Of a stretch of 48,782 nt of DNA, positions 30,519 to 34,279 are shown in pieces. The notes below the pieces were generated by a model that saw only the letters and a program-made list of their open reading frames with translations, was not told the DNA's origin and did no database searches. This stretch comes from Armatimonadota bacterium. GTDB lineage: Bacteria > Armatimonadota > Fimbriimonadia > Fimbriimonadales > Fimbriimonadaceae. Position numbers and translations under genes: made by a program. The stretch covers positions 64,001 through 112,782 of the forward strand of contig DAIDHV010000008.1 in the NCBI GenBank assembly GCA_027451905.1. The letters are read 5' to 3'. Position 1 is the first letter of the stretch. Each line of letters starts with the position of its first letter.

Positions 30519-32963
30519 ATGAATCAAAGCCAAATAAGATGGTGCCATGTTGGGCTTAGATTCCTCTTGTTTGCCACGTTACTGCTCCATTCCGCGCTCG
30601 GATCCTGCTTTGCTGGCCAAATTATTGAGAACAAGACCTTTTCCGGTCCCAAAGTTACGATCAAATATGCCCAGTGGGGTGGGGCCGATGATGTTCAGGA
30701 AACGATTAAGATTTGTAAAACTTTTATCCTTAAATATCCTAATATCCGCGTTGAGGTGGACGTCTACCCGTGGGGACAATATTGGACGAAAGTACAAACC
30801 GAGATGGCGTCTGGCATTGCCCCAGACGTGATGTCTTTTTACTCCGGCTCTTTTGGAGTTTGGGCGCAAAGGGGAGCTTTATTGCCCTTAAACACCTATC
30901 TCAAAAGCGCTCATTTTGACCTCAAAAGCCTGTATCCAGCGGCGGTTAAAAACTGTGAATGGAACCAGCAACTGTACGCAATGCCCAACAACATTGCCAT
31001 TTGGAGCTTAGTGTATTCAAAGGATCGGCTTGAAGAAAGCGGCATCCCTGAATCCCAATGGCCAAGCCCCGATCATCCCATGAAGTGGGCTCAGTTTCTC
31101 AACCTATCTCGGCGGCTCACCTTAAGAAACCCAGACGGTACTTTCCGCCAATACGGAATGTCGGCTGGGCAAAACTGGGAACAAGCCATGGCTTCGATGG
31201 AGGGCGGAATGTTTGTCAACCATCAAGTTCAACCAACTCGGCCAACATTGACCGGCAACACCCAGCTTCTGCAAGGATTAACCAACTTGTTTCAAGCGGA
31301 ATACGCCGATCGGTCAATCCTAGGAGCCACTCCTATTTCTTCTGATTCTTCTGTCAACAACACCGACACCATCCTCACCTCACCTCGATATGCCATGGGG
31401 ACAACCGGCCCTTGGGCATTGCCGCAACTAAAGCAGGCGGGCGTGAGATTTGGGGTTAGCCCTTTGCCAGAAGCTAGCTTTCCGATAAACCTCATCAACG
31501 TCAACTCAGTTGGCATCTATGCTTACTCTAAGCATCCTCAAGAAGCCTACGATTTTATCCAGTTCCTTACTTCCCTCAAGATGCAGCAGCTTATAGGAAG
31601 CAAGCTTAAAGGAGTGCCCGTTCTCAAGGCTGCGGTGGGAGCTTTCATCCACAACTCGTATCACATTCCCGATTGCCAAGCCTTTGTGTATGACGTTCAA
31701 ATTGCTAAGCCATCGATTACCACCAACATCACCGAAGTCAACACAGACTTTACTAATTTTTTTAATGATTTAGGCCAAAAGTTAGATACTTTGTACGATG
31801 CGCAACTGTCAAGGGTCAAGCGCACCAATGGCACCATTTCTTCGGCTGATTATAAGGTATTTGAGAACAAAATGAAGGCGTCGGTTGCCGCCCTCTGCGC
31901 TTCTAGTCTGCACAGTTTGGACCGGCAGATGAAGATTTCGTTTTCTCAGGCTCATTTGCCGCCTCCAACATTTTCTCAAAAATATGTCTGGCCAGTCATT
32001 ATTTTGGCGGGGATGGCTGCCTTTTTAACCGCCTACCTTTCCTTTGCAAAACGTCAAAGGAGTTCACCAAGCGGGACGGGCATTTCAGCCTCTTCCAAAA
32101 CCGGGCTTGCCTTTTTATCCCCTTGGCTTTTTGGACTTGTCTTCTTCACACTGGGTCCCCTTCTTGCCGCCTTGCTCCTTTCTTTTACTCACTGGGATAT
32201 GATCCGCCCACCCGAGTGGATTGGCATTCAGCACTACGCGCTTTTGCCATCCTATCAATTCTTTTGGATGGGGCTATGGAAGACCTTATTGTATGCGGTT
32301 CTCGTGATACCCATATCCCTGATCGGAGGCTTAGCAACCGCAGGATTACTCACTTGCAAAATTAAGGGAGGGCCTTTTTTTAGGGCGATTATCTATCTGC
32401 CAAGCCTGTTTACTGGGGCAGAAGCGGCTGTACTGTGGACCCACATGCTCAACAAGGATCACGGCATCCTTAATGAGATTTTGTCTTGGCTGCACATTGC
32501 GCCGGTTTCTTGGCTAGATGCAACCCATGCCTTCTATTCGGTGGTTATGATGAACCTGTTTTGGATTGGCAGTTCCATGATCATCTACTATGCGGGCATG
32601 AAGCAGATTCCTGCTTCTCTCTACGAAGCCGCCGATCTAGACGGGGCCGGCGCCTTGCGCAAGTTCTTCCGCGTCACGGTTCCTTTGCTGTCACCAGTTA
32701 TCTTGTTTCTTGTCATCATGACCACGATCGGTGCCTTTCAGGTTTTTACTCCCGCCTTATTCTTTGCGTCTTCAAGCTACAGCATAGGTGATCCCGATAA
32801 CTCACTAAGGTTTTACGCGGTGAATATCTACGACGCGGCTTTTAACAAGCTAGAAATGGGAACCGCCTGCACCTACGCCGTGATTCTCTTCCTCTTGATT
32901 TTCTTAATCACAATGGTCCAGATGAGGCTCTCCAAGCGATTTGTTTACACGGATGGTGCCTAA
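30519..32963 (+). CDS. Fusion of extracellular sugar-binding protein and MalF-type ABC permease
   Basis: The protein has 814 residues from ATG 30519. After a signal sequence (about 1-31) comes a family 1 solute-binding domain (about 40-470) with KYAQWGGADDVQETIK, YPWGQYWTKVQTEMASGIAPDV and HPQEAYDFIQFLTS. Near 488-510 a membrane helix (YVWPVIILAGMAAFLTAYL) and a Ser-rich linker lead into a complete MalF-type permease (about 525-814). This begins GLAFLSPWLFGLVFFTLGPL and carries the EAA loop EAADLDGAGALRKFFRVTVP, which docks the ATPase. Normally these are two proteins; here the receptor is tethered to the transporter in a fixed 1:1 ratio. An upstream LGSC might be a lipobox but is unconvincing. 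The stop overlaps the next ATG (TAATG), giving tight coupling. Substrate is likely a sugar or oligosaccharide, not determinable here. Confidence 0.88.
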   Translation: MNQSQIRWCHVGLRFLLFATLLLHSALGSCFAGQIIENKTFSGPKVTIKYAQWGGADDVQETIKICKTFILKYPNIRVEVDVYPWGQYWTKVQTEMASGIAPDVMSFYSGSFGVWAQRGALLPLNTYLKSAHFDLKSLYPAAVKNCEWNQQLYAMPNNIAIWSLVYSKDRLEESGIPESQWPSPDHPMKWAQFLNLSRRLTLRNPDGTFRQYGMSAGQNWEQAMASMEGGMFVNHQVQPTRPTLTGNTQLLQGLTNLFQAEYADRSILGATPISSDSSVNNTDTILTSPRYAMGTTGPWALPQLKQAGVRFGVSPLPEASFPINLINVNSVGIYAYSKHPQEAYDFIQFLTSLKMQQLIGSKLKGVPVLKAAVGAFIHNSYHIPDCQAFVYDVQIAKPSITTNITEVNTDFTNFFNDLGQKLDTLYDAQLSRVKRTNGTISSADYKVFENKMKASVAALCASSLHSLDRQMKISFSQAHLPPPTFSQKYVWPVIILAGMAAFLTAYLSFAKRQRSSPSGTGISASSKTGLAFLSPWLFGLVFFTLGPLLAALLLSFTHWDMIRPPEWIGIQHYALLPSYQFFWMGLWKTLLYAVLVIPISLIGGLATAGLLTCKIKGGPFFRAIIYLPSLFTGAEAAVLWTHMLNKDHGILNEILSWLHIAPVSWLDATHAFYSVVMMNLFWIGSSMIIYYAGMKQIPASLYEAADLDGAGALRKFFRVTVPLLSPVILFLVIMTTIGAFQVFTPALFFASSSYSIGDPDNSLRFYAVNIYDAAFNKLEMGTACTYAVILFLLIFLITMVQMRLSKRFVYTDGA

Positions 32964-34279
32964 TGCGCAAACTTGTTCTTGTTCCCGTTTATCTGTGCTT
33001 GGCCGCCATTTGCCTACTCTTTGTTTTTCCCTTTTATTGGGTGGTTGTCAGCTCTTTAGAAACCATCTCGGGGCTAAACCTAAAACCTCCTGCCCTCTAT
33101 CCTGCCGTGCTTCTGACCACCAAGGCCGTGCTTCCCCTATCCAACAATATTGTCCAGGCAGGGGCGGATTTTTATGCGGTACTGCCGACTAGGAATGGTC
33201 CAAGCCAGGGCCAAACGGTAGATCCGCACTCGGTTTGGATGCTCAAATTAGAACAGAAAGTTCAAGGCAAGGGTGCCAACCAATCCTCTTATTTAGAGCC
33301 GACTCGCCTGGTGCGAACCTTGGCATCAATCCAAACCAGCCCTATCAAGCTGATCCCAGTTTCTGTTCCTCAGAAATCCATTATCTTTCCCAAAATGGCA
33401 ATTGAATCAGTCAATGGACAGACCAAGGGAATTGTGGCGGATCAAATTCGAGGCAGTGGAGATCATTACCAAGAAGTCCTGCTGACAATCAACCGAGTGC
33501 AAGAGGGCAAGACTGCCACCGTAACAAACATTTCCGTGCTCCGAAATCCCCAGCATGTTCGACTGTTGAAATTTCACGCCGAGTGGAGCAATTACCTCAA
33601 GACCCTCAAAGGGCCCGAGGCGACGATTGGGGGCGCGTCGGATGGATTTCTCCTCTTCATGAGGAATAGCCTCTTTCTGGCTTTCTTCGCGGTTTTTGCC
33701 CAGCTTGCCTCCAGCAGCCTTGTGGCGTATGGGTTTTCGCGGCTTCAGTTTAAGGGCAGGAACTTCCTGTTCATTGTTTTGCTTTCAACCCTGATGATTC
33801 CTGGCCAGGTCACAATGATCCCCCTCTTTTTTGTCTTCAAGGCTCTTCACTGGGTGAACTCATTTTTGCCCCTTATGATCCCCCAGCTGACGGCTGGCGC
33901 ATTCAACGTGTTTTTAATCCGGCAATTCCTGCTGACCTTCCCCAAGGATTTGGATGAATCGGCCACGATTGATGGCGCAAGCCACTGGCGAATCTATCGC
34001 AACATCATTTTGCCAAACCTAACCCCCGTCTTTATCGTGGTAGGACTCTTTACTTTTATTGCCACTTGGCAAGACGTTTTGGGCCCCCTGATCTACTTAG
34101 ACAGCCCATCCCTGCGCACGGTGACGCTGGGGCTGGAGTACTTCCGATCACCTTACGTTGATAATCGCCCCCTCCTTTTGGCAGGTGCGGTTCTTTCGAT
34201 TCTGCCCGTCTTTGCTTTATTCTTGGTTGCCCAGAAGCACATCCTGTCTGGGATCGCAACGACCGGCCTCAAAGAGTAA
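32963..34279 (+). CDS. MalG-type ABC sugar permease with large periplasmic insertion
   Basis: The 438-residue protein is much longer than the usual 270-300. TM1 (about 5-29, VYLCLAAICLLFVFPFYWVVV) is followed by about 180 extra residues predicted to lie outside the membrane (about 33-215, beta-rich). The normal MalG core then runs to the end: NSLFLAFFAVFAQLASSSLVAYGF, LSTLMIPGQVTMIPLFFVF, the EAA loop ESATIDGASHWRIYRNIILP and FTFIATWQDVLGPLIYL. The insertion sits where it could contact the fused binding domain of its partner, which is inference. No ATPase gene is adjacent, so a shared MsmX/UgpC-like ATPase encoded elsewhere is expected. A terminator follows immediately. Confidence 0.88.
   Translation: MRKLVLVPVYLCLAAICLLFVFPFYWVVVSSLETISGLNLKPPALYPAVLLTTKAVLPLSNNIVQAGADFYAVLPTRNGPSQGQTVDPHSVWMLKLEQKVQGKGANQSSYLEPTRLVRTLASIQTSPIKLIPVSVPQKSIIFPKMAIESVNGQTKGIVADQIRGSGDHYQEVLLTINRVQEGKTATVTNISVLRNPQHVRLLKFHAEWSNYLKTLKGPEATIGGASDGFLLFMRNSLFLAFFAVFAQLASSSLVAYGFSRLQFKGRNFLFIVLLSTLMIPGQVTMIPLFFVFKALHWVNSFLPLMIPQLTAGAFNVFLIRQFLLTFPKDLDESATIDGASHWRIYRNIILPNLTPVFIVVGLFTFIATWQDVLGPLIYLDSPSLRTVTLGLEYFRSPYVDNRPLLLAGAVLSILPVFALFLVAQKHILSGIATTGLKE

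Follow-up and report, generated by a model that had tools for sequence, protein, structure and literature searches.

A receptor-fused CUT1-type importer of an Armatimonadota bacterium and the periplasmic insertion in its MalG-type partner

Whether the tethering of a receptor to one permease subunit of an importer goes with a remodelling of the other subunit is the question raised by a two-gene CUT1-type locus in a 2.87-Mb Armatimonadota bacterium genome split over 37 contigs. Its relatives suggest a place on the Fimbriimonadales side of that phylum. The window, i.e. the whole stretch of 48,782 nucleotides that was analysed (G000:C8:64001-112782), carries gene F (30519..32963, + strand; 814 residues), in which a solute-binding protein (SBP) domain precedes a MalF-type permease, and gene G (32963..34279, + strand; 438 residues), a MalG-type permease with a large insertion between its first two transmembrane helices (TM1 and TM2). 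A preliminary description of this DNA had seen in the pair an unusual and co-evolved assembly. The reading preferred here, to which a probability of about 0.7 is given, is of an oligosaccharide importer of the CUT1 type that has a tethered receptor, a shared MalK and a MalG insertion acting as docking surface or spacer. The fusion itself is of an already known kind, because a MalE-MalF fusion has been characterised and an N-terminal receptor fusion is present in GlnPQ, and it is widespread in Armatimonadota; the new element is its combination with a beta-domain at the periplasmic P1 site of MalG. No description of the Armatimonadota fusions, or of a MalG P1 beta-domain together with a fusion, was found in the open literature searched.

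Receptor and permease in one chain

Identification as a sugar importer of the ATP-binding cassette (ABC) type held up, with SBP_bac_1 (PF01547) at residues 72-356 of F (E 1.7e-29, above cut-off) and BPD_transp_1 (PF00528) at its residues 621-808 (E 1.1e-12), the latter domain being above the Pfam cut-off in both F and G. The best NCBIfam relatives are UgpA for F (E 1.4e-27) and UgpE and MalG for G (E 1.3e-26 and 1.6e-26, respectively), at scores below the equivalog cut-offs. The N-terminal position of the receptor, in a single 814-residue chain with the permease, is likewise upheld by Pfam and by the frame, which is open from the ATG at 30519 to the stop at 32961-32963 with zero stops between the receptor and permease domains; a check for a stop/start there found none. 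The stop of F and the start of G share a TAATG overlap, as had been described.

A scan of a genome collection yielded nine full-length relatives of F with 45-51% identity, and partial ones besides; all are fused. The metagenome-assembled genomes (MAGs) from which the full-length forms derive are labelled Fimbriimonas, Fimbriimonadales, Armatimonadetes, Planctomycetota, Ignavibacteriales or unclassified, and labels of those with partial forms include Omnitrophota and Lentisphaerae. The downstream gene is visible in eight loci, with an inserted G next to F in 8/8. In a Planctomycetota MAG an unrelated gene follows F and a G of the window type, insertion included, lies on another contig, a split which, as far as sequence can tell, is as expected for obligate partners. 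The Omnitrophota MAG has a window-type G as well; in a MAG whose F lies on a truncated contig (L026), and which may be incomplete, none was found. Looking for the two-protein layout in related genomes has thus brought up complete pairs at about 50% identity in MAGs of Armatimonadota and of Ignavibacteriales. Since nine independent MAGs carry a fused F, eight of them with an adjacent inserted G, an artefact of assembly or sequencing is excluded by sequence comparison for fusion and insertion alike.

The features of F, all on the + strand, begin with a signal-peptide-like N-terminus (residues 1-34, 30519..30620; hydropathy, helix 15-33). Alignment reveals signal-peptidase-I-like sites (..ARAEIVEN) in the relatives, and the N-terminus is probably cleaved and not that of a lipoprotein. 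The solute-binding domain, assigned by Pfam (residues 35-415, 30621..31763), has as its best PDB sequence matches an arabino-oligosaccharide-binding protein (6rjy, E 2.9e-19) and MBP1 (4r9f, E 7.4e-19). It is succeeded by a variable, poorly conserved C-terminal SBP tail (residues 416-488, 31764..31982), and then by the extra transmembrane helix and Ser-rich stretch that had been predicted for this chain and that hydropathy and sequence bear out: TM0 (residues 490-511, 31986..32051), present in all aligned relatives, and a cytoplasmic linker (residues 512-528, 32052..32102). In the MalF/UgpA-type permease domain (residues 529-814, 32103..32960) the helices start, by hydropathy, at residue 537, and a PDB sequence search aligns MalF 2r6g_F to residues 584-805. 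EAA motifs are kept in both proteins (YEAADLDGAG in F, ESATIDG in G). A MalF-P2-like domain is absent from F, with just a short loop at the P2 position.

The insertion in the MalG-type partner

In G, also on the + strand, TM1 (residues 4-30, 32972..33052) is defined by hydropathy and matches MalG TM1 in the model comparison. The periplasmic insertion comes next (residues 42-211, 33086..33595; delimited with AlphaFold2 and a nine-member alignment), and then the MalG permease core as given by Pfam and alignment (residues 212-438, 33596..34276), where a short clade-specific KGPEATIG segment precedes TM2 and the MalG core alignment begins at about residue 229. The insertion (PPALYP...EWSNY) is bounded by a PP..YP motif after TM1 and a W.NY motif before TM2. 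That an insertion is present at this point, and that it is periplasmic, accords with the preliminary description, but the 180 residues given for it there do not: the TM1-TM2 gap is about 14-39 residues in ordinary MalG versus about 169-184 in the window clade, a net excess of about 150. In one clade member the gap is 312, owing to an internal repeat. The insertion of the orthologue at L018 (7571-8416) has three low-complexity repeat copies (SGPAPRPSEGEVGEERTGRGG...), by which its length is nearly doubled.

Folded alone with AlphaFold2 and the nine-member alignment, the insertion gave a predicted local distance difference test (pLDDT) score of 83.7, a predicted template-modelling score (pTM) of 0.77 and twelve beta strands; it is, on confident prediction, an independently folding all-beta domain. 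Searches with it found no Pfam family above cut-off, no PDB sequence relative and no significant fold match for the model (Foldseek best E 0.73; best Z 4.6 in a second look), the Z 4.6 match being SH3-like, to the C-terminal half of the insertion, and a weak one to a common arrangement. Few of its residues are invariant in the nine-member alignment. The model of the full G (pLDDT 71.5) superposes both on MalG 3puv_G (Z 20.3; residues 2-437 with 9-292) and on MalF 3pv0_F (Z 14.3; residues 1-423 with 58-505, the P2 region being spanned), and because it does so on both, the insertion is placed by modelling at the MalG P1 site that is pseudo-symmetric to the P2 domain of MalF.

Comparison of the window sequence with its orthologues gives 20-26% identity in the insertion versus 61-70% in the MalG core. 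Across the clade the mean identity is 0.32 in the insertion, 0.30 in the stretch of SBP tail, TM0 and linker, 0.50 in the SBP and about 0.7 in the permeases, so that in these alignments insertion and SBP tail are the fastest-diverging segments of the pair.

Fusion and insertion across the phylum

The wider sample consists of 80 loci around MalG-type matches, taken phylum-wide, plus the own-genome and orthologue loci. Lengths of the TM1-TM2 loop group at 14-44, 82-98, 138-160, 169-184 and 280-342 residues. Inserts of the 82-98 class are one copy of a small module and those of the 138-160 class, by inspection, two; one- and two-copy modules are homologous to each other and to the inserts of unfused systems (hhalign, 95.8% and 97.8%). 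The window insert was tried as a homologue of the one- and two-copy modules and rejected at hhalign probabilities of 0.2% and 0.1%, with remoter homology possible.

With the window pair left out of the counts, fusion and insert occur together in 24 loci (plus 1 in which an apparent frame problem breaks F in two), fusion without insert in 13, insert without fusion in 5 (one of them, L098_8031, uncertain as the end of the locus truncates F) and neither in 38; among orphan G genes 13 have an insert and 5 have none. The proposed check of whether insertion covaries with fusion yields a strong raw association (Fisher p 2.6e-7 for the 2x2 table), but on a MalG-core tree with the insert columns removed, where fusion changes about 4 times and insertion about 8, the independent insert changes are mostly without change in fusion. 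In five independent pairs that differ in insertion across supported branches fusion is unchanged in 4-5, at the low power of a quick tree with long branches. Fusion and insertion appear, therefore, to share deep clades and do not visibly change together, with the same low power applying. A general rule of co-evolution was considered and rejected, given 13 fused systems with normal MalG, 4-5 unfused ones with an insert and no usable support from the tree-aware comparison. As each feature occurs without the other, the idea of a co-evolved assembly fails as a generality, but within the window clade both features are together wherever both genes are seen; there the pairing is perfect wherever testable, and to judge by the sequences a specific partnership may still hold in that clade. 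The supposed rarity of an N-terminal fusion is not borne out, given paralogues in the same genome, many other Armatimonadota, the characterised MalE-MalF fusion and GlnP. Near-identical one-module MalGs with no adjacent MalF were seen in several genomes of one genus, group g12 (L079, L088, L090, L103 and L104).

The genome of the window has about six CUT1 sets, window pair included, four of which are fused. One of the three further SBP-MalF fusions, C8:32.8k, combines an F of 812 residues with a G of 286 that lacks the insertion. Another, C1:505-509k, beside a rhamnosidase-like gene, has an F of 820 residues and a G of 593 with a 143-residue loop; this 593-residue MalG (L010 5237-7018, - strand; G000:C1:505-507k) has an N-terminal helix-rich membrane region of about 190 residues as well as a two-module P1 insert, a layout that recurs in L116, L123, L127, L134, L141, L143 and L145. 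The third, on C5, is an F of 826 residues with no adjacent G (L011 4816-7296, + strand), and C14 has an orphan G of 522 residues with a 280-residue P1 loop (L014 5429-6997, + strand); the two are possibly partners across contigs. Inserts as long as that of C14, with no adjacent F, are found at L076 and L135. C12 and C2 carry ordinary SBP/F/G trios.

Docking domain, spacer or something else

In the preferred reading the N-terminal domain of F would catch an oligosaccharide in the periplasm, TM0 would lead the chain back across the membrane, allowing the MalF core to begin with its N-terminus in the cytoplasm, the tether would fix one receptor per transporter, and F and G would jointly build the translocation pore. 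Energy would probably be provided by a remotely encoded MalK-type ATPase common to about six CUT1 systems, and the MalG insertion would most likely hold or position the tethered receptor over the pore, replacing the P2 that is absent from this MalF. The substrate class is suggested to be oligosaccharide because relatives of the SBP bind oligosaccharides and genes for carbohydrate-active enzymes (CAZymes) neighbour the orthologues (GH130, GH35, GH4 and an arabinofuranosidase). In both Ignavibacteriales MAGs (L024 741-1829 and L025 3884-4858, both - strand) the importer is near a GH130 gene of mannooligosaccharide-phosphorylase type, a possible clue to the substrate.

As had been noted, no ATPase gene adjoins F and G (window open reading frames and neighbours checked); the window neighbours are genes for a helicase, an HD protein, an MFS transporter and an M42 peptidase, and carotenoid genes. 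The genome yielded one ATPase of the OB_MalK type, at C3:225952 (L017 1261-2514, - strand), outside the detected CUT1 loci, and since this single one is set against about six CUT1 sets, sharing is, from gene content, the simplest reading. An ATPase shared among importers is known from MsmX (PMC7658222). We infer both the use of the remote C3 MalK by F and G and the docking or spacer role of the insertion.

Known systems offer partial parallels. MalFGK2-MalE of E. coli is alike in permease fold (the MalG match above), SBP class and a receptor contact site at MalG P1, its MalE contacting MalF P2 and MalG P1 to go by the title of Daus 2007 (listed in PMC3150292), but its MalE is free, its MalF has an extra periplasmic domain (P2) and its malK is dedicated. 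The characterised MalE-MalF fusion, reported to be transport-competent (Licht 2019, Res Microbiol 170:1-12; cited in PMC9045158 and PMC7756565), is likewise of the CUT1 type and has its one SBP domain and MalF in a common chain; the MalG P1 insertion of the present system, and its probably different substrate, set the two apart. GlnP of Lactococcus lactis GlnPQ carries substrate-binding domains (SBDs) N-terminal to the transmembrane domain (TMD) in one chain (PMC8025302), but GlnPQ is of an amino-acid family, with two SBDs per chain, a homodimeric TMD and no partner insertion. OpuA/OpuF-type osmoprotectant importers share a receptor tethered to the permease (PMC11065425) and differ in a homodimeric TMD. 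Within the phylum, the fusions whose MalG has modules (L010; L099, L116, L127 and others) are alike in combining fusion with an insert at the equal MalG site and unlike in that their inserts are built from a single or a doubled module of another family, with the extra N-terminal membrane region in two-module forms. The SBD of OpuA/OpuF is at the opposite end of the permease chain, and the organism with the characterised MalE-MalF fusion is reportedly Bdellovibrio bacteriovorus.

Several points weigh against a receptor-serving insertion as set out above. Many tethered receptors in the phylum, including that of the own paralogue C8:32.8k, have a normal MalG, and since such systems exist the insertion is not required for tethering as such. 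Smaller inserts at the MalG P1 site are also present in unfused systems, and the poor conservation of the insertion would be no less expected of a spacer, or of a surface particular to each species, than of a face for precise docking. CAZyme genes near F and G were not found in the window.

The strongest alternative, a serious contender though somewhat short of even odds, is that the insertion is a lineage-variable spacer or a contact for another envelope part (peptidoglycan, an outer-membrane porin or an envelope protein) and does not serve the receptor, with common descent explaining the co-occurrence. P1 inserts of several size classes across Armatimonadota, in fused and unfused systems alike, nearly all independent insert changes on the tree being without fusion change, the low conservation and the long low-complexity repeat inside the L018 insert are all in keeping with it. 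Less readily accommodated are the receptor contact of the equivalent E. coli loop (per the title of Daus 2007) and the presence of both features in every window-clade member with both genes seen. In mirror-tree comparison the insert and the SBP tail also diverge in step once the core is accounted for (partial r 0.56, permutation p 0.0003; nine taxa, ten comparisons), with r 0.22 and p 0.14 for insert versus SBP; the tail correlation is suggestive of contact, though saturation of fast segments could also cause it.

An extension of the docking idea, offered tentatively and at less than even odds, is that different P1 beta-domains were gained again and again by MalGs of Armatimonadota and some other MAG phyla, that of the window clade having become an obligate clamp for the MalF-fused receptor, with the docking domain swapped between subunits relative to E. 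coli. It is improbable that sugar is bound by the insertion, or that this is a further receptor-like domain which captures or filters substrate: an independently folding beta-domain is predicted beside the pore entrance, and Pfam gives a weak match below threshold to CE2_N (E 0.02) for a one-module insert from a different clade, but the window insert has the blank family, PDB and fold searches and few invariant residues described above. A decayed, non-functional pair or a fusion created by assembly, to which the fragmented genome and the lack of nearby CAZyme genes might lend colour, is refuted by the open frames, the kept EAA motifs and gene junction and the relatives, about 50% identical, in independent assemblies.

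The impression of a rare, matched pair of fusion and insertion is thereby corrected. Tethered receptors fix stoichiometry and drop the diffusion step, which makes them natural tests of receptor docking in type I importers, and a ready comparative series exists within the phylum in paralogues whose P1 site holds 0, 1 or 2 modules. A receptor-MalF fusion with a P2-like domain on MalG could show whether docking function moves between pseudo-symmetric subunits.

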